IMG/VR virus record: IMGVR_UViG_3300046167_000146
Coordinates: 1 to 35,313 of that record
Source of the DNA: a virus
Strand: one strand, 5' to 3'
DNA length: 35,313 nt
In this document: positions 197-35,313 of the stretch, piece after piece
Numbering within the stretch: position 1 is the first letter of the stretch
Layout: every line of letters starts with the position of its first letter
The notes under the pieces: generated by a model
The model's input: the letters and a program-made list of their open reading frames with translations, nothing else
Database searches by the model: none
What the model was told of the DNA's origin: nothing
Program-made: the position numbers and the translations under genes

Positions 197-1836
197 TGAC
201 TGCGTCCTCCTTTGGCTTACTTGTCTCTGACATTCTACCAGTAAAATTGTCATACTTCAAGTAACAGCAAGCACCAGTCAAACCTGAGTAACGGTTCTTG
301 AGGATACGCACCGTAGTGGTGTTCCTTTTTTCTATGTTCTCATCTTGCTGGTCACGCTCCAAGCCAATGACCATGTCGGATAGCTGTGCAATAGCCTGTG
401 AGCCTCTTAGTTCACTTAGACTTATCTGACCTCCATCCTCATGTGCTTTGCCTTGGGTGCGCTTTAGGTGAGAAACAAGAAACAAGCCTATGCCTAACTC
501 CTGCACCAGTGACCGTAGCTTGGTCATGATAGCATCAATGGCCTTACGCTCATCACCATTGTCCTGTGCTGACACAACGATGGACAGGTGGTCTAGGATG
601 ATCCACTTGCAGTCCAAAGCCTTAGCCATGTACCTGACCCTAGCTAACAGATTGTCCTCACTGGTACTGCCCCAGTGGTCAAACAAGTAGTACCTGCCTG
701 TGCCAAGGGTATCCTCCCAGTAAGGGAATGCTATCTCTGGGTCTAGGTCTTCCTCAAGGTGCAAAGGGCAGTCTGCTTCCACTGACATGATGCCCAGTGC
801 GGTGCGAGCTACGTCCTCCTCCAAGGCTAGGATGCCAATGTTGTCCTCCGTTGCCCTTAGCAGGTAGTGCTCTAGCTCCCTAACCATCTGAGACTTACCC
901 ATACCTGAGCCTGACGTTATCGTCACTAGCTCGTATGGTCTAAAGCCTTTGGTGTAGGTGTTGAGTCCCTGCCATGGGTATGGTATGGACTTGACCTTAA
1001 TCTTGTTGGTCAAGGCATCCCATGTGTCACTACCTTGGATGATGCCATCAGGCTGGTAAACCTTGGCATTCCACCATGCTGAAGTAAACTCCCGCACCTT
1101 GTTAGCCAACAACATCTCATTGGCGTCCTTCATGGGTAGCTTGGCTATCTTTAGCTTGCTTGGTGAGAACAAGTCCTTTATGTCGTCTACGGCCTGTTGT
1201 CCTGCCTTGTCTGTGTCAAAGCAGACCACTACGTTATCGTAGCCTTCCAAAAAGTCTAGGTTCTCTTTGATTTCCTTAGCTGCTGAGGATGCACCATTGC
1301 GTAAAGAGACTACGTCCCACTTACGTTCAAACATCTCAGCCTACACTAAGGGCATCTATCTCACCTTCTGTGATGGTGATGTATTTACCCTTACCTTTGC
1401 ACGTTTGCTGACCAAACAGACCTACATTAGTGGTCATGTCACCTGTCGCATGGAAGTCTTTATTCTTCACATGGCGTACCTTGGTGGCCTTTAGTTCGTC
1501 GCTGTCTGTGCTGTAGTACGGGTAGATGTGCTTGGCTATCTCACCGGCTGCATTGTACTCAACCATGACATTGTATTTTCTACAAGTCTCTTGGCTAAGT
1601 CTTCTGTCGGGTATAGCTGCTATGACGCCTGCTGCTGTCATATCTTCCAATGGCCTCCTTGGTTGGGGCTGTAGCGTTACTACGTTGCCATTTGAATGTT
1701 CGTGATGATCACATAGGTTTGAAAAGCAATGCGCTGACCCGCTGCTATAGCGAGCCAGTGCATCCTTAGAGCCACACTTGGGGCATGGCTCATGTCTTAC
1801 AAACGGATCATCCTTGCTATGCCTATAGGTCTGCAT
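186..1836 (-). CDS. T7 gp4-like primase-helicase (one frameshift)
   Basis: Bifunctional replisome enzyme that makes RNA primers and unwinds DNA ahead of the polymerase. Bases 1336-1836 encode the primase part: a Cys4 zinc-binding site (C18, C21, C37, C42) and a Toprim motif TEGEIDALS. Bases 186-1334 encode the rest of Toprim (CFDTDKAG) and a RecA-type helicase with Walker A SGSGMGKS, Walker B WIILDH, a sensor His in LVSHLK and the H4-like RGSQAIAQLSD. The frame breaks near 1340: GTAGGCTGAG on the minus strand should read GTAGCTGAG, giving SVAEMFERKW. Removing one G yields about 549 residues, close to the 566 of T7 gp4. The break lies inside the Toprim domain, so natural separate primase and helicase proteins are unlikely. 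ATG 1836 overlaps the end of the SSB gene; a GTG lies at 1845. Confidence 0.92.
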
Positions 1837-2194
1837 CAATCCCACTGCTGTCTTCCGCTACTTCTACCACCCTAATTGCATTTAGGTAGGTTGGAGTACC
1901 ATGGACTGGGTGTGGCGTACCTGTCTTGTAGCTAAGGCGTACCACTGAACCTCGTGGAATGTTACCAACAAAGGGCTGGTCGTTAGCATCAATGACCTTT
2001 ACGTTGAACTTACTAGCAAACTTGCGTTGCTTGTTACCGTCGTAGTCTCTTAGCTTTACCCCTTGCTCAGACAAGATCTGTGCATTCTCATCGTCCAAGG
2101 TTACAGTCAGTGTATACCGTCCTGTGTCCTGTCCGTTATACACCTCTGTGCTGTCCAAGTGAGCAAACGCTGCTTTACCACTTACTACTGCCAT
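1823..2194 (-). CDS. Single-stranded DNA-binding protein, probable
   Basis: A 123-residue protein beginning MAVVSGKAAFAHL, with beta-rich sequence (RYTLTVTLDDE, SKFNVKVIDAN, SVVRLSYKTG, TYLNAIRVVEV) as expected of an OB fold, and a C-terminal tail with several acidic residues ending GIDADL. The acidic tail is typical of phage SSBs such as T7 gp2.5, where it contacts polymerase and helicase. The gene sits directly upstream of, and overlaps, the primase-helicase, which fits a replisome operon. It is much shorter than T7 gp2.5 (232 residues), and recognition rests on composition, position and resemblance to short SSB-like proteins of other phages, so it is probable rather than certain. Its ATG follows AGAGGT about 7 bases upstream, after a 131-base gap that may hold a promoter or operator. 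Confidence 0.65.
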   Translation of the reverse strand: MAVVSGKAAFAHLDSTEVYNGQDTGRYTLTVTLDDENAQILSEQGVKLRDYDGNKQRKFASKFNVKVIDANDQPFVGNIPRGSVVRLSYKTGTPHPVHGTPTYLNAIRVVEVAEDSSGIDADL

Positions 2195-2325: not shown

Positions 2326-2520
2326 TTAACTTGAAAAATTTTCATGTTCCCTAGTTATCCTCATTATTCCTTCCACATGTTCAATAAAATCTTGTGCTTC
2401 TGTGTCCCTGACTTGCTTCTGGTCTGGAAACCTTGCCTTCAGTTCCTCTACGCTACAGGGGTGGCATAAGTCACCTTTGTCTAGGTCAGTCTGTAGCGTA
2501 TCACAGGCTTTGCAGCGCAT
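2326..2520 (-). CDS. Small zinc-ribbon protein, unknown function
   Basis: A 64-residue protein with two CxxC pairs (C3, C6, C19, C22) at the N-terminus, a typical zinc ribbon, followed by a charged helical C-terminal half. The ATG overlaps the TAA of the preceding gene (TAATG), so translation is likely coupled to the 79-residue protein upstream. It is the last of the small early genes before the SSB gene. Zinc ribbons of this size are often found in phage regulators that touch nucleic acid or host proteins, but nothing more specific can be seen. Confidence 0.6.
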   Translation of the reverse strand: MRCKACDTLQTDLDKGDLCHPCSVEELKARFPDQKQVRDTEAQDFIEHVEGIMRITREHENFSS

Positions 2521-2759
2521 TAGTGCACCTCCTGGGACTCTGGGCCTACTAACTGCGCGTATAAGGCCTCTAAATCGCCCGTAGAGCGTTTTTCTAGGTC
2601 TTCTGATAGGTAGGCACTGCTTATAGTTAACATCTCGCTAACAGCCATCACGTTGAGCCTATAGTCTACCAAGGTTTGCACTATTAGATCCCTTCTGTCC
2701 TGCTCTGGGTCTGGTTCTTGGTTACTTGTAACGTCTTCCTCGTAATATGTTGTACTCAT
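2520..2759 (-). CDS. Hypothetical small early protein (79 aa)
   Basis: Not recognised. An acidic 79-residue protein with a disordered N-terminus rich in E, D and Q, and a helical segment (RDLIVQTLVDYRLNVMAVSEML) that could form a small helix-turn-helix-like bundle: the pattern VMAVSEMLTISSAYLSEDL resembles the second and third helices of DNA-binding repeats. Its ATG shares four bases (ATGA) with the stop of the upstream 54-residue gene, and its TAA overlaps the next ATG, so it is embedded in a translationally coupled run. Coding status is well supported by this packing; function is unknown. Confidence 0.6.
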   Translation of the reverse strand: MSTTYYEEDVTSNQEPDPEQDRRDLIVQTLVDYRLNVMAVSEMLTISSAYLSEDLEKRSTGDLEALYAQLVGPESQEVH

Positions 2760-3636: not shown

Positions 3637-3843
3637 TTACCTTCTTCCTTGTGGTGATTTTTTCCAGTGTGATCGTCTGACTATATATTTAACCTGTCCA
3701 AGTGTTATGTCAAGCTCTTTTGCTATGTTTTGTTGGTTTACACCCTGAAAATATAGCTTCCGCACCCTTGGTTCCAATGGGTTTGCTGTTGGCTGGCGGA
3801 ACACTTCAAACCTTTTATCCTGTGCCCTTATTGCTTCAATCAT
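3637..3843 (-). CDS. Helix-turn-helix DNA-binding protein, probable
   Basis: A basic 68-residue protein. The segment VRKLYFQGVNQQNIAKELDI followed by TLGQVKYIVRRSHW matches a helix-turn-helix of the sigma-region-4 or homeodomain-like type: a helix, the turn around ELDIT, and a recognition helix rich in R and K. It could regulate phage promoters or bind the control region at 5900-6200. ATG 3843 is chosen over a GTG 27 bases upstream because its ATGA overlaps the stop of the upstream membrane-protein gene, the same coupling used by its neighbours. The DNA-binding fold is read from the pattern; the regulatory role is inference. Confidence 0.6.
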   Translation of the reverse strand: MIEAIRAQDKRFEVFRQPTANPLEPRVRKLYFQGVNQQNIAKELDITLGQVKYIVRRSHWKKSPQGRR

Positions 3844-5480: not shown

Positions 5481-5825
5481 CTAGGCGGTGGCTTCGGCTA
5501 TCTTCTGTTCTTGAGTCTCTACTTGATCCTTTAGAAGCTCAAGGATTACCCGCAGCTTTCTACCGCTTACTCTTTTCTTCATGGCTAAATCACGGAGACT
5601 GTCAGTGTAGTAAGAGGACGCGCACCAGCCGTATGCAAAGCTCCATCCTGACTTAACAACACCTTCCTTTACAAGCTCGCTGATGCGGTCGTTGTTCTTA
5701 ATACGACGGCTTTCTAAGCCATTGGGGTTAAAGTAGTGAAACTGTGCTACTTGCCTGTTGTTAGCCATCCCTTTGTCGCTTGTGGCTTCGCGGCTTGCAT
5801 ACATGTAATCGTTGTAGTGGCTCAT
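5481..5825 (-). CDS. First leftward early gene, hypothetical (114 aa)
   Basis: A 114-residue protein starting MSHYNDYMYASREATSDKGM. ATG 5825 is chosen because GGAG lies nine bases upstream; the frame is open further up, but that part overlaps the predicted promoter. The middle (RRIKNNDRISELVKEGVVKSG, YTDSLRDLAMKKR) looks like a small helical DNA-binding-like fold, and the C-terminus (LELLKDQVETQEQKIAEATA) is a likely coiled coil. It resembles no family I can name with confidence. As the promoter-proximal leftward gene it should be the first phage protein made from this unit, hence a candidate host-takeover or regulatory factor. Confidence 0.6.
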   Translation of the reverse strand: MSHYNDYMYASREATSDKGMANNRQVAQFHYFNPNGLESRRIKNNDRISELVKEGVVKSGWSFAYGWCASSYYTDSLRDLAMKKRVSGRKLRVILELLKDQVETQEQKIAEATA

Positions 5826-5853
5826 CTTGTCGGTCTCCGTTGTTGTCTTGGGT

Positions 5854-5927: not shown

Positions 5928-5983
5928 GAATGCTTGAGTGTACCTATATAGGTACTACATAGATCCACACTCTTCAGCATTCT
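5928..5983. repeat. Perfect 16-bp palindrome with flanking inverted repeat
   Basis: GTACCTATATAGGTAC at 5940-5955 is identical to its own reverse complement. It is flanked by GAATGCTTGAGTG (from 5928) and an imperfect inverted copy ending in GCATTC (to 5983), so the whole can fold into a cruciform-like structure. A dimeric repressor site or an origin element are both possible. Confidence 0.5.
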
Positions 5984-6010
5984 CAAGTCTTCTCAAGTCT
6001 ACCCAAGTCC
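5981..6010 (+). repeat. Three tandem 10-bp repeats (TCTCAAGTCT)
   Basis: TCTCAAGTCT occurs twice in a row (5981-6000), followed by a degenerate third copy ACCCAAGTCC (6001-6010). The 10-base period is close to one helical turn, so a protein could bind all copies on the same face. Confidence 0.5.
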
Positions 6011-6057
6011 ACTAATGCTGACCGTTAGACTCCGGGGTGTATACCCATAGGCCCCTT

Positions 6058-6163
6058 AGTCTAACTGTTGTAATCTATTGCGCACCTAAGTCTAACTGTT
6101 AGGCTCTTTGGTTGTCCCTTAGTCTAACTGTTGTACTCTGGGGAAAACCTTAGTCTAACTGTT
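6058..6163 (+). repeat. Four direct repeats AGTCTAACTGTT, 31-32 bp apart
   Basis: Exact copies of AGTCTAACTGTT start at 6058, 6089, 6121 and 6152, that is 31, 32 and 31 bases apart, or three helical turns. Three of the copies are preceded by CCTT or CT. An imperfect inverted copy (AGTCTAACGGT on the minus strand) lies at about 6020-6030. The intervening sequences differ, so selection acts on the 12-mers. Such spacing is typical of iterons or of operator arrays that bind a protein cooperatively. Confidence 0.7.
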
Positions 6164-6372
6164 GGGCTAAGGGTGGGCTAACGATAAGGGTACGGGGGGC
6201 CGCTGGCGTCACTGATGATTATTGTAGTAGGAGCTCCAGTACTCAAAAGTAGAAATTAGAAAACTACAGTAAAATAATAAAAAAGTAAGTATTCACTAAC
6301 TTATGTAACCTCTTGAATACACAAGAGAAATTAAAACTTTGACTCAGTCTAAAAAATAACAGTAAAAAGTAC

Positions 6373-6401
6373 TTGACAAATGCTTAAAAATATGCTATAA
6401 T
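6373..6401 (+). promoter_or_regulatory. Promoter P1, consensus sigma70 with extended -10
   Basis: TTGACA (6373-6378), a 17-base spacer, and TATAAT (6396-6401) preceded by TGC, which makes an extended -10. Every element is consensus. It faces the rightward packaging genes; AAGGT precedes the ATG at 6439. A near copy of this promoter is found at 12501, which shows it is a functional phage module. It implies use of the host RNA polymerase. Confidence 0.9.
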
Positions 6402-6438: not shown

Positions 6439-6861
6439 ATGGATAATCAAGATGATCCTCCTAAGCGTAAGCGAGGTAGACCTAGGAAAGATGAGGTAGT
6501 TAAGAAGACTAGTGGCTCTAGAGGTAAGGTAGGTAGACCTAAAGGGGATGCTTCAATTATCAATGAGTATAAAGCTAGGATGTTAGCTAGTCCTAAGTCT
6601 CGTAGAGTACTAGATAGTATATTTGATGCAGCACTTAATGATGACCATAAGAATCAAGCTGCTGCTTGGAAGCTAGTAATGGATCGTATGTTACCCTTAA
6701 GCTACTTTGAGAAGGATAGTGCTGGAGGTAGATCAGCGGTATCCATAACAATCTCAGGTATAGGTGGAGGCGCTGTAGAGACAGATGTTACACCTAACCA
6801 AGAACCTCAGATGAGTGATAACTCATTTATTGAAGGAGACTATACAAACAATGACGTTTAA
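6439..6861 (+). CDS. AT-hook protein, possible small terminase subunit
   Basis: A 140-residue protein with two AT-hook-like motifs near the N-terminus (KRGRPRKDE and VGRPKGD), then a helical domain (ARMLASPKSRRVLDSIFDAAL, AAWKLVMDRMLPLSYFEK) and a low-complexity acidic C-terminus. It is the first gene after promoter P1 and lies three genes upstream of the large terminase, a position where the small terminase subunit usually sits. AT-hooks would let it bind the minor groove of AT-rich DNA such as the nearby control region. The small-terminase role is inference from place and DNA-binding motifs; a transcription factor for late genes is the main alternative. Confidence 0.5.
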   Translation: MDNQDDPPKRKRGRPRKDEVVKKTSGSRGKVGRPKGDASIINEYKARMLASPKSRRVLDSIFDAALNDDHKNQAAAWKLVMDRMLPLSYFEKDSAGGRSAVSITISGIGGGAVETDVTPNQEPQMSDNSFIEGDYTNNDV

Positions 6862-7204: not shown

Positions 7205-7347
7205 TGAACACTAACAGAGAATACCTAAAGACCTTAGCACAACAAGAAGATCTAAACTGGGACGGTGATCCTGAGTTAGATGTTGAGTATGAGTGTGAGG
7301 AAGAAAAAGATTTAGATGAGTATGTAGTTAAGTACTTCTATGACTGA
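7204..7347 (+). CDS. Hypothetical acidic protein (47 aa)
   Basis: GTG at 7204-7206 overlaps the TAG of the endolysin by one base, and the TGA at 7345-7347 overlaps the start of the terminase gene. The product is very acidic (DLNWDGDPELDVEYECEEEK) and ends in KYFYD. It fills the gap exactly, with coupling at both ends, so it is probably translated. Function unknown. Confidence 0.45.
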   Translation: MNTNREYLKTLAQQEDLNWDGDPELDVEYECEEEKDLDEYVVKYFYD

Positions 7348-8590
7348 ACTAAACATACAACTACTTGATTGGCAGAAGAAGGTCTGGGCTGACAGTACTA
7401 GATTTAAGATTGTAGCTGCTGGTAGACGTACAGGTAAGTCCAGACTAGCAGCATGGATGTTAATTGTAAATGCTCTACAGGCAGACAAAGGCCATGTGTT
7501 CTATGTAGCTCCAACACAGGGACAGGCCAGAGACATCATGTGGCAAACACTATTGGAGCTGGCGCACCCTATTGTAACTAACGCACATATAAACAACCTA
7601 CAGATTAAGCTGGTCAACGGTGCAACCATCAGCCTCAAAGGTGCCGACAGACCAGAGACTATGCGAGGTGTGTCACTAAAGTTCTTAGTGATGGACGAGT
7701 ACGCTGACATGAAGCCAGAGGTATTTGAGCAGATCCTTAGACCTGCCTTGGCTGACCAAAAGGGTGGTGCATTGTTTATTGGTACACCTATGGGTCGTAA
7801 CCACTTCTATGACCTGTACAAGTACGCAGAGCTAGAGGACGATGAGTCCTATGAAGCATGGCACTTTACAAGTTACGACAATGAGCTACTAGACCCAGAG
7901 GAGATTGACCTAGCTAAAAAGTCTATGTCATCCTATGCCTTCCGTCAAGAGTTTATGGCATCCTTTGAAGCTAGAGGCTCAGAGATGTTTAAAGAAGACT
8001 GGGTTAAGTTTGGTGAGACACCAGAGATAGGTGACTACTACATAAGCATTGACTTAGCTGGCTTTGAGGATGTAAGTAAGAAGAGAACTAAAAACTCTAA
8101 GCTGGATGAATCAGCTATTGCTGTTGTAAAAGTAAATGAAAATGGCTGGCACCTAGAGAACATCATACATGGTCGCTGGGACTTAGCGGAGACAGCTAGG
8201 AAGATCTTTGAGGCTGTACGGGACTACAGGCCCATCAGTGTAGGTATTGAAAGAGGTATCTCCAAACAAGCTGTTATGTCTCCCCTAATGGACTTGATGA
8301 AGCAACGGGGTAGATTCTTTGTTGTAGAAGAGCTAACTCACGGCAACAAGAAGAAGACAGATAGAATCATGTGGGCCTTACAGGGTAGATTTGAGAATGG
8401 TCAGATTACCTTGGGCAAGGGTGAATGGAACAGTAGATTCTTAGACCAGTTGTTTCAGTTTCCAGATGTACTAACACACGATGACCTTGTGGATGCCTTT
8501 GCGTACACAGACCAATTGGCTAAAGTAGCCTACTCATATGACTTTGAGATTGATGATCTTGAAGTATTAGACGTTGTAACAGGATATTAA
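7340..8590 (+). CDS. Terminase large subunit
   Basis: Packaging motor and nuclease that pumps genome DNA into the prohead through the portal. A 416-residue protein with the full set of motifs: Walker A AAGRRTGKS (about residues 26-34), Walker B FLVMDEYAD (about 115-122), coupling motif FIGTPMGRN, then a RNase H-like nuclease with SIDLAG, VGIERG and THDDLVDAFAY as acidic catalytic sites. The length is usual for compact podovirus terminases. It follows a small acidic gene with an 8-base overlap and is followed at once by basic microproteins and the portal. Confidence 0.95.
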   Translation: MTELNIQLLDWQKKVWADSTRFKIVAAGRRTGKSRLAAWMLIVNALQADKGHVFYVAPTQGQARDIMWQTLLELAHPIVTNAHINNLQIKLVNGATISLKGADRPETMRGVSLKFLVMDEYADMKPEVFEQILRPALADQKGGALFIGTPMGRNHFYDLYKYAELEDDESYEAWHFTSYDNELLDPEEIDLAKKSMSSYAFRQEFMASFEARGSEMFKEDWVKFGETPEIGDYYISIDLAGFEDVSKKRTKNSKLDESAIAVVKVNENGWHLENIIHGRWDLAETARKIFEAVRDYRPISVGIERGISKQAVMSPLMDLMKQRGRFFVVEELTHGNKKKTDRIMWALQGRFENGQITLGKGEWNSRFLDQLFQFPDVLTHDDLVDAFAYTDQLAKVAYSYDFEIDDLEVLDVVTGY

Positions 8591-9042: not shown

Positions 9043-11489
9043 ATGGATTATGGTGACAATGACGTTTTGTCAAGTGACGAACACCTAGAAAACTGGGTAA
9101 TGGCTAAGTGTGACTCATGGCGAGATCACTATGAGTCCAATTATTCAGAAAGATTTGAAGAGTTTTACCGTTTATGGCGGGGTATCTGGGCAGCAGAGGA
9201 CATGGAGCGCAAAAGTGAGCGTTCACGTATCATTTCACCTGCATTACAGCAGGCTGTAGAGTCCAGTGTAGCAGAAATTGAGGAAGCAACCTTTGGTCGT
9301 GGTAGTTATTTTGACATTACCGACGATATGGGTGACGCAGAGGCTCAAGATGTCGTTTATTTGCGACAAAAGCTGCATGAGGACTTTGAGAAGACACAGA
9401 TACGCAAGCAAGTAGGTGAATGTCTTATCAACAGTGCTGTATTTGGTACTGGTGTAGCTGAAGTAGTGCTAGAGGAAGTCAAAGAGATGGCTCCTGCTAC
9501 ACAGCCTATCATGGACGGACAGCTACAGGCAGTAGGTGTTAACGTAACAGACCGTACTGTAGTCAAACTACGCCCTGTAATGCCTCAGAACTTCCTAATT
9601 GACCCAGTAGCTACGTCCATTGAGGACGCTATAGGCGTTGCTGTAGATGAGTTTGTGCCAAGACACAAGGTACAACAGCTACAGGAAGAAGGTGTCTACA
9701 GGAACGTATACGTAGGTCAGGCGGCTAGTGACTACGACCTTGAGCCAGACCAAGACCTAACAAGTTATGACGATGACAAGGTACGCCTAACTAAGTACTA
9801 CGGTCTTGTGCCTCGCTACCTACTAGAGATTGGCGAGAAGGAAGCTCTGCTTGACGAAGACGAAGACATTGCTGATATTGAAGTAGAGGAACCAGAGAAC
9901 GATGAACAGGATGCCAGCTATTACGTGGAAGCTATTGTGGTTGTCGCTAATGGAGGCATCCTACTAAAAGCAGAAGCTAACCCATACATGATGCAGGATC
10001 GTCCTGTAGTAGCATTTCCTTGGGATGTAGTACCCGGTAGGTTCTGGGGTCGAGGTGTATGTGAGAAGGGCTACAACAGCCAGAAGGCGCTTGATACGGA
10101 GCTACGTGCACGTATTGATGCCCTAGCCCTAACAGTATACGTAGGTCAGGCAGCTAGTGACTACGACCTTGAGCCAGACCAAGACCTAACAAGCTATGAC
10201 GATGACAAGGTACGCCTAACTAAGTACTACGGTCTTGTGCCTCGCTACCTACTAGAGATTGGCGAGAAGGAAGCTCTGCTTGACGAAGATGAAGACATTG
10301 CTGATATTGAAGTAGAGGAACCAGAGAACGATGAAGACGCCAGTTATTATGTGGAAGCTATTGTGGTTGTCGCTAATGGAGGCATCCTACTAAAAGCAGA
10401 AGCTAACCCATACATGATGCAGGATCGTCCTGTAGTAGCATTTCCTTGGGATGTAGTACCCGGTAGGTTCTGGGGTCGTGGTGTATGTGAAAAGGGCTAC
10501 AACAGCCAGAAGGCGCTTGATACGGAGCTACGTGCACGTATTGATGCCCTAGCCCTAACAGTACACCCAATGATGGCTATGGACGCTACACGGCTTCCTA
10601 GAGGCTCTAGGCCAGAGGTACGCCCCGGTAAGATCATCTTGACCAATGGCGACCCTAAGACTGTACTCAATCCATTTAACTTTGGTCAGGTTAGTCAGAT
10701 TACTTTTGCACAGGCAGCAGAACTACAAAAGATGGTTCAGATGTCTACAGGTGCTATTGACTCTGCTGGTATCCCCGGTAGTATCAATGGTGACGCTACG
10801 GCTGCTGGTATCAGCATGTCCCTTGGTGCAATCATCAAGCGTCATAAGCGTACCCTGATTAACTTCCAGCAGTCATTCTTAATCCCATTTGTCAAGAAGG
10901 CTGCTTGTCGTTACATGCAGTTTGACCCAGAGAACTACCCTGTCAAGGACTACAAGTTTAACACTACGTCTACTCTAGGTATCATTGCCCGTGAGTACGA
11001 AGTAACGCAACTTGTGCAACTACTGCAAACCATGCCAGCAGAGTCTCCACTGTACAACACGTTAATCCAGTCAATCATTGACAACATGAACCTGTCTAAC
11101 CGTGAAGAACTAATGGCTAAGCTTGGCTCAGGCAGAGCAAGCCTCACAGCCTACTGAAGAACAACAGCAGATGCAACAAGCGGCTGCACAGGCACAGATG
11201 GCCTTTCCAGCAGTCACAGACAGCAGCACTTAACGGTCAGGCACAGGAGTCTACTGCTAGAGCGCAGAAGATTGCTGTAGAGACACAGCTTGCCCCACAG
11301 GAGCTACAGATTGACCAGATTAAGGCAGTCACTGCTAACCTGAAGGCAGGCGACCAAGAGGACAAGGAGTTTGAGCGTCGTATGAAGATTGCTCAGACAT
11401 TCTTGAAAGAGAAAGAGATTGACCTAAAGAATCAACCTCAGCAACAACCACAGCAACCAAGTCAACCCCTTAGACTACAACAAGGATAA
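9043..11489 (+). CDS. Portal protein (internal tandem duplication, two frameshifts at C-terminus)
   Basis: The portal forms the ring at the head vertex through which DNA enters and leaves. Recognised from its place between terminase and scaffold and from segments such as MTHPMMAMD-like VHPMMAMDATRLPRG, RPGKIILTNGDP, GAIDSAGIPGSINGDATAAG and the C-terminal helical, Q-rich tail. Codons 222-364 (9706-10134) are repeated in frame as 10135-10560. The frame stops at 11157 but an extra base near 11127 (GGCTCAGG for GGTCAGG) hides a continuation, and a second extra C near 11207 hides the rest, which runs to TAA 11489 (ending SQPLRLQQG). With both bases removed the product is about 814 residues, or about 672 without the duplication, a normal size for this type. 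Confidence 0.88.
9706..10560 (+). repeat. Tandem duplication of 429/426 bp inside the portal gene
   Basis: Copy 1 spans 9706-10134 and copy 2 spans 10135-10560. They differ at eight bases, all third codon positions and all synonymous, and by one missing codon (a Gln) in copy 2. Both copies encode the segment from VYVGQAASDYDL to RARIDALALT. The outer flanks read as a normal portal when one copy is removed. Confidence 0.95.
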
Positions 11490-26995: not shown

Positions 26996-27970
26996 TCAAG
27001 CTACATTAGCAAACTTAACCTTCCCAACATCACCACGTAGTCCAGCCTTCATGTAGGTAGTTGCACGACCTTCAAAGAAGTTCTGATGCTCTACACCTAG
27101 ACACATCGTCAAGCCAGTTTAGTGGGTTGTCCTTCACCTCGTAGTTGGGCTTCAAGCCTAGCTGTAATAAGCGGCGGTCAGCAATGTACCTGATGTACTC
27201 TTGCATCTCAGACTTAGTCAGGCCCGGTATATCACCCTGCTCAAACACCAAGTCCAAGAACCTATCCTCTAGGTCAACCATCTCACGACATGCCTGATAG
27301 ATCTCAGCCTTGAAGTCATCAGTCCACAAGGTCAATGTTCTCCTGCATAAACTCCCTGAATAGCTTTGTCATTGCCTCTACGTGCATGGACTCATCACGT
27401 ATACTGTACGTAATGATCTGCCCCATGCCCTTCATCTTACCAAACCTTGGGAAGTTCAAGCAGGATGATGAAGCTGCTAAAGAGTTGTAAGCCTTCAGTA
27501 AAGCCTGAGTAGATAGCCAGTGCCTTAGCAATGCTCTTCTTGTCGCCCTTAGTGACCTTCACAGCGTTGATGTACTCATGCTTGTCAGCCATAGCTTCGT
27601 ACTCTGAAAACGCCTTATACTCCACCTCTGGCATCCCTACGGTGTCCAGTAGCAGGCTGTAGGCATGTTGGTGTATGGACTCCATGTTAGCGAAGCTAGA
27701 CATCATCATACGTGCTTCAGGCTTCTTGAAGATACGCATGTAACGATCTACGTACCCAGCACCTACGTCTACATCAGACTGTGTAAACAGACGGAAGATC
27801 TGTGTTAACAGATTCTTCTCTTCATCAGTCATTGTCTGCCAATCTTTAACGTCATTGTGCAGAGGTACATCTTCAGGGAACCAGTGCATCTGATTCTGTT
27901 GTGAGTAGTAGTCAAACATCCAAGGATGGTCAAACGGTTTGTAGTAATCTCTAGTATCTAATAAGCTCAA
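26996..27970 (-). CDS. nrdB: Ribonucleotide reductase class I beta subunit (three frameshifts)
   Basis: Small subunit that holds the di-iron centre and radical needed by NrdA. The first part (27437-27970) has NMESIHQHAY (E97, H100, radical Tyr104) and YSGFTEGLQLF; the second (27319-27459) has FPRFGKMKGMGQI and the ligand motif SIRDESMH; the third (27103-27328) has LWTDDFKAEIYQ and NPLNWLDD; the last (26996-27100) has GVEHQNFFEGRATTYM. The frame breaks near 27458, 27330 and 27103; each is repaired by removing one base. Restored length is about 323 residues, normal for phages. TTG 27970 is the start, with AAGGAG seven bases upstream. As written, the gene would not give an active protein. Confidence 0.9.
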
Positions 27971-32449: not shown

Positions 32450-33296
32450 TAACCACCTCCGTTAAGTATCTTGGCCCTGTGGAGTACAGGAATGTACGTA
32501 GCTTAGGATAGCAAGCATGTTTGAAGTGACAGTAGGAGCAGCCCATAGCCAGCTTCTTGTTACCAGACTTGCCATCAGGCACTGTATCATGACACAGGGG
32601 TGGAGGCTCTTTAGTTTCCACCATCTCCTTAACATGTTTAATGCGATCCGTTATATCTTCCTTTAGAACCTCATAGACAGGAGCCTGTGTATCCTCTAGG
32701 TCATACTTCAGATAAGTCAAGTGACCATTGGCTTTGTCCATAGCCAGCCAGCCTACCTGTGTTTCACCTTCAGACTTAGCGTATCCTTTGATTTGGTCTA
32801 TGTACCCAAAGGGGTCATCAAATGCAAGTGTAGCATCCTTGAACTTCTTGAAGCCATAGGTACTAGCAGACTTAACGTCAGTCACTATGCCATCAATTTT
32901 ACAGTCCATGCTACCTGAGATACCTTCTACGGTTGCCTGTGCCTGCTCATGTGTCACTGTATGGCCTGCTAGTCTAGCAAACAATAGCAACATCTCCTCA
33001 ATTAGATGTCCGTACATAAACTTCACAAGGGTGTGAGGCTGCATCTTCTCCTTTGGCCCTACATTGTTGTAGTGGTTCCACAGGAACCTGTCGGTCTTAC
33101 CAATGTTGGACATACGTAGCTTACGTGCATCAAAGCTACCACGCTGGGTAAACTCCTTACGCATCAGATCCTTACATGCCTCACCAAAGTCATCAATGAT
33201 CTGCTCAGCGTCCACTGACTTGTCAGGTGACTTAAACTTCACAAGATCGTAGATGTCATCTATTAGGGTGTTAACTGTTTTCATCAAAGTATCCAT
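32421..33296 (-). CDS. PD-(D/E)XK exonuclease, Cas4/RecB-like with Cys cluster
   Basis: A 291-residue nuclease probably in the place of T7 gp6. Catalytic residues are seen as E100 (GHLIEE), D131/D135 (SMDCKIDG), D140 and K142 (TDVKSAS) and Q169 (YIDQIKGY), the order of RecB-type nucleases. Four cysteines, C235 and C253-x2-C256-x5-C262, resemble the 4Fe-4S site of Cas4 and AddB. It likely degrades host DNA or trims recombination ends. ATG 33296 overlaps the GIY-YIG gene by 26 bases; ATG 33284 is the alternative start. The nuclease core is clear; the iron-sulphur cluster is inferred. Confidence 0.82.
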   Translation of the reverse strand: MDTLMKTVNTLIDDIYDLVKFKSPDKSVDAEQIIDDFGEACKDLMRKEFTQRGSFDARKLRMSNIGKTDRFLWNHYNNVGPKEKMQPHTLVKFMYGHLIEEMLLLFARLAGHTVTHEQAQATVEGISGSMDCKIDGIVTDVKSASTYGFKKFKDATLAFDDPFGYIDQIKGYAKSEGETQVGWLAMDKANGHLTYLKYDLEDTQAPVYEVLKEDITDRIKHVKEMVETKEPPPLCHDTVPDGKSGNKKLAMGCSYCHFKHACYPKLRTFLYSTGPRYLTEVVNEPKVQEIT

Positions 33297-33810
33297 CTAG
33301 TATTTCTTTAGCTACTGGTGCAGCAATTACAAACCATTCGTTCTTACTACCATGAGTTTTCCTTAGTAGCTCATGCACCTCACTTTCTGCTTTACGCCTG
33401 TCATCAGTGTCGTAGGCTTTTATCAAGATGTAGTCCCTGTATGGGCTACCTGTCTGAAACTGCTTTAGCCTGTCCTCTGCGTCTACTGCCATGCCTATCT
33501 TAACCCAGCTAGGGTAGGCTGGGCTGTACAGGATGTACACTTGTCCTTGTTTTGCAGTCTTGTAGTTATCTAAAGACTCAAATGCTGCATCGCCAAAGGA
33601 CTTGTAAGTTCCGGGTTTGTACAACGGATGATGCTGAGATATATATTTACCGTTGACGTACATTCTAGCTTTGTTCTTTTTTGTTTTACACGGAATGCAA
33701 ACGCGCCATCCCTTTTTCACATTGCTTTTGTGCCAGTTTTTCTCTGGTATTAAAGGAACACCGCAATAAATACAGTCTTTATTAGTGGGTCTCTGCCCAA
33801 CTACTTCCAA
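33271..33810 (-). CDS. GIY-YIG/T5orf172-like endonuclease with zinc finger
   Basis: About 179 residues. N-terminal Cys4 finger (C13, C16, C38, C41; CIYCG and CIPCK), then a GIY-YIG-like domain of the T5orf172/MUG113 type: QVYILYSP, WVKIGMAVDAEDRLKQFQTG, and a later Glu in ESEVHELL. TTG 33810 is preferred as start because GGAG lies nine bases upstream and overlap with the polymerase is only 29 bases; the open frame reaches to 33951 inside the polymerase. A selfish nuclease gene set right behind polymerase fits a free-standing homing endonuclease. Function as such is inference. Confidence 0.75.
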   Translation of the reverse strand: MEVVGQRPTNKDCIYCGVPLIPEKNWHKSNVKKGWRVCIPCKTKKNKARMYVNGKYISQHHPLYKPGTYKSFGDAAFESLDNYKTAKQGQVYILYSPAYPSWVKIGMAVDAEDRLKQFQTGSPYRDYILIKAYDTDDRRKAESEVHELLRKTHGSKNEWFVIAAPVAKEILDGYFDENS

Positions 33811-35313
33811 CTTGGTAGTCTCCGGTGAGCTTACAGTTGAGTCCCAATTCAATTCCTGCTGCTTCCAAGCAGGAGACTGCGAGTCTTCCGTACTTGTCTG
33901 CTTGGTCTTCTCTAACTTCTGCTTGTACTTCATCATGGATATTCCCCACAAAGTAATAGTCTAAGTTCCATAGTATAGCATACTCCTGTAGTAAACACAG
34001 AGCTTTTTTCATTACAATAGCACCTGCACTTTGAAGCAATGTGTTCAAGGCTGAATGTTCTGACCTTATGTGTAGCTTCCTACCGTCTAGTCCTTCAATG
34101 ACTCCTTGGGCTGAGTCTCTTGCAGTCTTGTCTTTAAGAGCTGCAAATGCTGGGAGATTACGCATAAATCGTTCTCTAAGTTTGCTACCAGCACCTCTGC
34201 CTCCTCCTGCCACTGTTCCAAGTTTTGCATCTCCAGCACCGTACAGCAGTGCGTAGATGAAAGTTTTAGCCTTATCTCTTGATTCAAGTCCTGCAAGGTG
34301 TTGGTTAGCTGTGTGGATGTCTCCGTTAATGACTTCATTGGTGTAGTCCTCATCGTTCATGTAGTGGGCTAACATACGTAGCTCTAGGCCACTAGCGTCA
34401 AACCCTACAAGTTTATAGCCGTCCCTAGCAATCCAGCACTGTCGGCATTCTTTGCCATACGGCGAGTAGCTTGCAGGTACTTGGGCCAAGTTAGGTTTAG
34501 AATGTGTCATACGTCCAGTAACAGCACCGTTGGTGTTAACATAACCATGTACTCTGTCTGTGTCTGGGTTAGCTTCATCTACCCATGACTGCACTTGAGC
34601 CACACGCTTTTGTAACATCAGGTACTCAGCTATCAACGCTGCCTGTGGTATGTCCTTGACAGTAGACAGTACTGCTTCATCTACTATTGGCTGACCTGTA
34701 GGGGTTAGCTTGCAAGGTTTCCATCCAAAGTCCATTAGGTACTCACCTATCTGCTGTCTTGAGCCAAGGTTAAATGGCTTCAAGGCTCTACGCATGAATG
34801 GTTCTCTGTCACCGGACTGTTGTACCTTCTGGTATTCTTCGTCAGTGAGTCCTACCTTAGACAGGCTGCCGTCCTTCTTGGTCTTTGGCACTACCTGTTT
34901 AACGTCCACCCACTTAGGTTTGAATACCTTATGTACTTCATCCTCCACAACCAGCTTGCGTTCCTTCAGGGTAGCTAACAAGTCCATAGCATGTCGTATG
35001 TCCAATAGCCAGCCATTACGTATCTGCTCTTGAGTTATCCACTGCACTTCATGTTCAAGGTCAATGGACTCTGGGCTAAAGTTACGTAGCTCTAGCTTCA
35101 TCTTGTTGTATGCCTTAGCTGTCACACGGACATCTTGGATACAATAAGCAATCATCTCAGGAGACAGGCATGTCCAGTCACTGTGGTCGCCTTTAGGGAA
35201 GCCTAGTATCTCACCCCAGTTAGACAGTCTGTGACCTCCTTCCCGCTGTGGGTTAGCTAGTCTGGACATAACCAAAGTGTCCTGTACCCTGCTCTTGTCC
35301 ACTGTGATGTCCC
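33782..35313 (-). CDS. DNA polymerase I family A, main part (continues at base 1 side)
   Basis: Carries residues 66 to 575 of the polymerase. Exo III is YCIQD (Y122, D126). The polymerase site is complete: motif A DASGLELR (D371), motif B RDKAKTFIYALLYG (K415, Y419) and motif C HDE (525-527). The C-terminus QVGSSWAETH matches the end of T7 gp5. The stretch corresponding to the thioredoxin-binding loop of T7 is shorter (about 59 against 79 residues, at about 196-255), so the processivity factor may differ. T7 gp5 has 704 residues. The N-terminal 65 residues are at 1-196. The stop overlaps the next gene. Confidence 0.95.
   Translation of the reverse strand, partial: DITVDKSRVQDTLVMSRLANPQREGGHRLSNWGEILGFPKGDHSDWTCLSPEMIAYCIQDVRVTAKAYNKMKLELRNFSPESIDLEHEVQWITQEQIRNGWLLDIRHAMDLLATLKERKLVVEDEVHKVFKPKWVDVKQVVPKTKKDGSLSKVGLTDEEYQKVQQSGDREPFMRRALKPFNLGSRQQIGEYLMDFGWKPCKLTPTGQPIVDEAVLSTVKDIPQAALIAEYLMLQKRVAQVQSWVDEANPDTDRVHGYVNTNGAVTGRMTHSKPNLAQVPASYSPYGKECRQCWIARDGYKLVGFDASGLELRMLAHYMNDEDYTNEVINGDIHTANQHLAGLESRDKAKTFIYALLYGAGDAKLGTVAGGGRGAGSKLRERFMRNLPAFAALKDKTARDSAQGVIEGLDGRKLHIRSEHSALNTLLQSAGAIVMKKALCLLQEYAILWNLDYYFVGNIHDEVQAEVREDQADKYGRLAVSCLEAAGIELGLNCKLTGDYQVGSSWAETH

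Follow-up and report, generated by a model that had tools for sequence, protein, structure and literature searches.

The window analysed here, 35,313 nucleotides of viral DNA (IMG/VR record IMGVR_UViG_3300046167_000146), carries a helically phased array of short repeats that is a genuine conserved feature, and relatives with resolved genome ends suggest that the intergenic region hosting it is the short direct terminal repeat (DTR) of a linear T7-like genome. In our estimate there is an even chance that the array is a protein-docking array within the DTR, serving end maturation and packaging. It is located in an intergenic stretch of ~0.55 kb, between leftward replication genes and a rightward operon encoding an AT-hook protein, an M15 peptidase and the large terminase. 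The components of the array and the predicted genome ends are as follows (G001, G002 and G004 are contigs of relatives; class A comprises the loci with the array type of the window):

5954..6227, no strand: predicted DTR, 274 bp, present once in the contig (from homology to the ends of G001, G002 and G004, and from motifs)
5954..5972, + strand: predicted left genome end GGT^ACTACATAGATCCACACTC (G001 and G002 left ends start with ACTATA)
6020..6031, - strand: inverted imperfect repeat copy, 2 mismatches
6058..6069, + strand: repeat copy 1, AGTCTAACTGTT, exact match
6089..6100, + strand: repeat copy 2, exact match
6121..6132, + strand: repeat copy 3, exact match
6152..6163, + strand: repeat copy 4, exact match, with its dyad centre 67 bp from the predicted right end
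6175..6182, + strand: half-site GGGCTAAC, two helical turns past copy 4
6188..6199, + strand: GC-rich block GGGTACGGGGGG near the right end, conserved in class A
6218..6231, + strand: predicted right genome end ATTATTGTAG^TAGG, cut after 6227 (from the G001 and G004 ends)

Repeat array and genome ends

The preliminary description of this DNA had listed four exact copies of a 12-mer at a step of 31-32 bases and an inverted imperfect copy upstream of them; all four were confirmed on the + strand, with steps of 31, 32 and 31, and the inverted copy was borne out as well. It was mistaken, however, in calling the sequence between the copies unrelated, since the two 53-nt double units share 83% identity and the unit consensus, derived from 152 distinct sites, has ~27 conserved bases per 31-bp period in relatives, around (C)CTAAGTCTAACTGTTGTACTCTG. 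The unit displays partial dyad symmetry, AGnCTAAC-N-GTTnnnCT, in which the six positions of AAC-N-GTT are invariant by construction, because this pattern was used to gather the 152 sites. The exact 12-mer is confined to the array, with no further match in the record. Its clustering is not due to chance: 60 Markov simulations of the window yielded no 12-mer with more than two occurrences in 150 bp, compared to four here. Both the word and its spacing, on whose conservation the preliminary description had made its case depend, turned out to be conserved. The core word is present upstream of terS homologues at 46 loci (the window counted, and a few near-duplicates among them), and in 37 IMG/VR stretches two exact 12-mer copies are closely spaced. 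In 36 distinct DTRs, including that of the window, neighbouring copies are separated by 31 bp in 79 cases, 32 bp in 17 and 29 bp in 10; the remaining 18 steps are longer (36-43 bp, one of 63) and, in the per-locus listing, mostly adjoin the first, degenerate copy.

Among the best 80 of 457 small-terminase relatives, many contigs start a few hundred bases upstream of terS. Contig G001 (37,231 bp) has a perfect 210-bp DTR running from ACTATAGAAGG through TTATTGTAG, with array copies at both ends. In G002, read in the same direction, a 45-base adapter is fused directly to ACTATATAGG, which is homologous to the left end of G001; the adapter exactly matches the PacBio one removed in PMC10936554. 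G004, which has a different array, begins at the base after GGCT, homologous to the left end of G001 and G002, and terminates at CTATAG, which corresponds by homology to the right end. The initial 222 bases of G004 recur at the opposite end, giving a repeat of at least 222 bases. Thus, identical direct repeats at both ends, as in T7-type genomes, are present in G001 and G004, and homologous fixed ends are shared across genomes (the left one by G001, G002 and G004, the right one by G001 and G004), the end positions resting on these very few contigs. In addition, the contigs of L160 and L177 stop a few bases from the right end, and contig ends are enriched within the predicted DTR (11 of 48 versus 2.7 expected; 8 of 43 versus 2.5 expected without five contigs of near-complete length). 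The T^ACTA motif of the left end is kept in nearly all class-A loci, and the right-end motif TGTAG^T is conserved among relatives. By comparison with these sequences, the DTR of the window would span 5954-6227, with the array inside and a single copy of the repeat in the contig.

The adapter of G002 is also an observation in its own right: a PacBio SMRTbell adapter was left untrimmed at one end of this IMG/VR contig (L118, 1696-1740, - strand), and such relics can mark true genome ends. A search for further adapter-tagged ends returned G002 as the sole case.

The position of the array relative to the right end is nearly constant. In the 36 distinct class-A DTRs, the centre of the last dyad lies 60-68 bp from the right end, and in 33 of them the half-site follows 20-23 bp past the last copy. 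The right end, in turn, is 210-212 bp from terS in all loci listed, with the terminase genes 0.2-1.1 kb away. The predicted DTR length varies from 179 to 278 bp in 39 class-A loci and rises with the copy number (r = 0.71). Since the distance on the right side is constant and the copy number varies leftward, the array is anchored to the right end.

Array classes and candidate array-binding proteins

Using the flanking right-end block as a probe, we found other lineages whose DTRs keep a CACACTC-like sequence near the left end, a GC-rich block resembling that of the window (GGGGACGGGGG) and the right-end motif, but differ in their interiors. The interior contains TGTCAAnnnTTGACA in class B, ATGCAAnnnnnRTGCCAA repeats in class C and the related group E, and GGTGACT/TGGTCAC elements in class D; these classes were assigned by eye and with simple patterns, D being the least well defined, and B genomes may hold C-type elements. 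Despite their unrelated arrays, the lineages have large terminases that are up to 100% identical, and that of G011, which carries a class-C array, is 100% identical to the one in the window. Several structural genes of G011 and the window are likewise 99-100% identical, whereas the primase, the single-strand binding protein (SSB) and the array differ strongly, a mosaic that probably reflects recent recombination between lineages. Recombination is also seen within a gene: the small terminase of L169 combines an N-terminal half of class B/C with a C-terminal half of class A.

The following genes of the window are relevant to the question of which protein reads the array:

1823..2194, - strand: gp2.5-like SSB, tracks the array class
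2326..2520, - strand: 64-aa CxxC protein, candidate reader, class-A-wide and class-A-only
2520..2759, - strand: 79-aa helical protein, tracks the array class with one exception
6439..6861, + strand: AT-hook protein, presumed small terminase, with two AT-hook-like motifs (from its position in the terL operon and Pfam AT_hook)
7340..8590, + strand: large terminase (PHROG and Pfam terminase matches)

We compared gene identities within and between array classes A, B and C, bearing in mind that the genomes are related and the events are not independent. No relation to the array class was observed for the large terminase (94 within versus 95 between classes), portal (96 versus 96) or the ribonucleotide reductase (RNR) large subunit (90 versus 90). 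By contrast, a relation was evident for the primase (89 versus 61), SSB (88 versus 51), the 79-aa protein (83 versus 45), the small terminase (91 versus 82) and the polymerase (90 versus 75), so that the replication module is a closer match to the array class than the terminase is. Linkage between neighbouring stretches of DNA would suffice to explain such associations. The 64-aa CxxC gene is the only gene of the window present in all class-A genomes (10 of 10, the window counted) and absent from the other classes (0 found).

Two proteins had been put forward in the preliminary description as candidate readers. The helix-turn-helix protein encoded at 3637 does not hold as a general reader, being 97% identical in one class-A relative and weakly matched in two more. 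The AT-hook protein encoded at 6439 is the presumed small terminase, and it is not the sole reader in every lineage: in a related lineage, byte-identical AT-hook proteins adjoin different arrays. Between L088 and L174 the small terminases are identical, and the primase, SSB and 79-aa proteins encoded on their contigs nearly so, yet their DTR interiors differ, which indicates that none of these proteins alone explains the difference. L087 has a class-A array beside a class-B 79-aa gene, unless the contig is chimeric. This case, together with a structure model in which the 79-aa protein forms a three-helix bundle, led to the rejection of a helix-turn-helix role for that protein. The leftward neighbour gene (5484-5828), for which only 8 relatives were found, is accessory and was rejected. 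The structure model of the small terminase was unusable (mean pLDDT 53). One may also envisage, although we hold it to be unlikely, that the array is a swappable specificity layer for a protein of the replication module other than the terminase, with one terminase processing differently marked ends; the reader of class A would then perhaps be the 64-aa CxxC protein.

Possible roles of the array

A role in end maturation and packaging is favoured by the location of the array in the DTR and by its fixed distance to the right cut. In the replicating concatemer, two genome units would be linked through a single DTR. Its three to six repeat copies would be bound along one helix face by a protein, perhaps dimeric in view of the partial dyad of the site, up to a point ~65 bp short of the right-end cut, and the complex would mark the junction for terminase. 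Cleavage at TAG^TAGG would then yield the right end, and the left end at T^ACTA would be formed after duplication of the repeat. What speaks against this role is that the large terminase is unrelated to the array class, that identical small terminases occur with different arrays, and that the array class tracks the replication module more than the terminase.

The main rival is end replication: a replication-module protein would read the array as an iteron-like origin, or as a site at which primase-helicase and SSB load, in order to duplicate or fill in the terminal repeat. We regard this as possible but rather doubtful. Iterons are typically direct repeats with helical phasing, as observed here, and the array class follows the primase, SSB, the 79-aa and (in class A only) the 64-aa proteins but not the large terminase, portal or RNR. 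The same association could nevertheless result from physical linkage, the position of the array is tied to the right cut, and the L088/L174 and L087 cases described above do not fit. Furthermore, no cognate initiator protein was recognised among the genes scanned, although the small class-specific proteins remain as candidates. The preliminary description, which spoke of an iteron or operator array for a DNA-binding protein, was right about the kind of object, a protein-binding array, but missed its location in the DTR, and the operator part of it is improbable. An operator or enhancer controlling the divergent operons would be consistent with the place of the array between them and with its near-constant distance to terS and the terS promoter. 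However, the word is confined to the DTR, the distance to the leftward operon changes with DTR length, and the array does not abut a promoter: the only 12/12 sigma-70 promoter, a perfect consensus for the rightward operon (6373..6401, + strand), begins 210 bp past the array, and the weaker 9/12 sites nearer to it occur in about the number expected by chance. All this makes regulation of the operons very improbable. It is quite unlikely, too, that the array has no protein reader and is repeat DNA that expands and contracts, forms a strand structure or provides homology for end annealing. Units are gained and lost as blocks, and the DTR strand folds better than shuffled sequences (z of -3.6 as DNA and -3.7 as RNA), but the folding score stems at least partly from dyad copies pairing with each other, and such a reading has against it a spacing kept to 29, 31 or 32 bp and the strong conservation of the AGTCTAAC half.

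Phage genomes with repeats at their ends are already known. At the concatemer junction of T7 and T3, CCTAAAG-like 7-mers form arrays next to the terminal repeat, and short repeat arrays at genome ends are a feature shared with the window group. The T7 arrays, however, flank the repeat and have a shorter unit, whereas in the window group the array is inside the repeat, has a three-turn step and differs between lineages. Lambda cosB, with its R-sites, resembles the window group in having several sites for the small terminase near the cut, but lambda has cohesive ends instead of a DTR, and the reader of the window array is only putative. SPP1 packages by a headful mechanism from pac and, unlike the window group, has no fixed DTR. 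As in the window group, the packaging-initiation region of SPP1/SF6 near the small terminase gene contains direct repeats; their boxA repeats differ, yet the small terminases are interchangeable, and their DNA-binding domain hardly prefers the pac repeats (PMC4737164). In view of this precedent, an unchanged small terminase beside different arrays is compatible with a packaging role. Similar in overall organisation are the T7-like podoviruses P-SSP7, a cyanophage with a DTR of 206 bp (PMC3350473), and the cobaviruses with DTRs of 159-173 bp (PMC6775973), which share a linear genome, a short fixed-end DTR and T7-like replication enzymes; the cobavirus DTRs also have a conserved G+C-rich part (PMC6775973). 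In the available portions of these reports, a phased 31-bp dyad array is not described for either. A limited open-access search likewise found no description of a 31-bp dyad array inside a DTR that is swapped among lineages sharing a terminase.

How terminal repeats of T7-like phages are marked and duplicated is incompletely understood, and the P-SSP7 report describes completion of the left repeat as still not fully understood (PMC3350473). The phages studied here provide a natural experiment, in which nearly identical large terminases and structural genes are combined with unrelated internal arrays and constant end signals. This contrast between lineages separates the cut signal from the array and yields a short list of proteins to test. 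The group could also help to locate the genuine termini of many uncultured phage contigs. That the spacing is kept while the word is swapped in some lineages suggests an exchangeable docking strip for end-finishing or packaging proteins.

Gene content and affiliation of the window

The T7-like primase-helicase, family A polymerase, gp2.5-like SSB and endonuclease, typical of T7-type phages, are all present in the window. The 601-bp array region and the AT-hook protein had no match in the phage collection, the AT-hook protein also had none in PHROG, and its Pfam AT_hook match is barely over the cut-off. The DNA polymerase is at best ~50% identical to those of pelagiphages, and the portal has 26-28% identity over about three quarters of the query in the phage comparison. 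With no collection match and such distant polymerase and portal relatives, we refer to the group as uncultured and only probably marine; among the phages searched, no cultured member was found. The portal gene contains an in-frame, nearly perfect tandem duplication of ~426-429 bp (9706-10566), but since the segment is single-copy in 20 of 20 relatives checked, the duplication may be an assembly artefact. At 27319-27970, 33271-35302 and 186-1845, several conserved genes (RNR small subunit, primase-helicase and the end of DNA polymerase) are seen as overlapping or abutting frames, which may be frameshift errors in the contig. Finally, a contig binned to a Crocinitomicaceae MAG (MED692; L238, 1-700) encodes a relative (63%) of the AT-hook protein, preceded by a DTR-like sequence, which is possibly either a host hint or a binning error.
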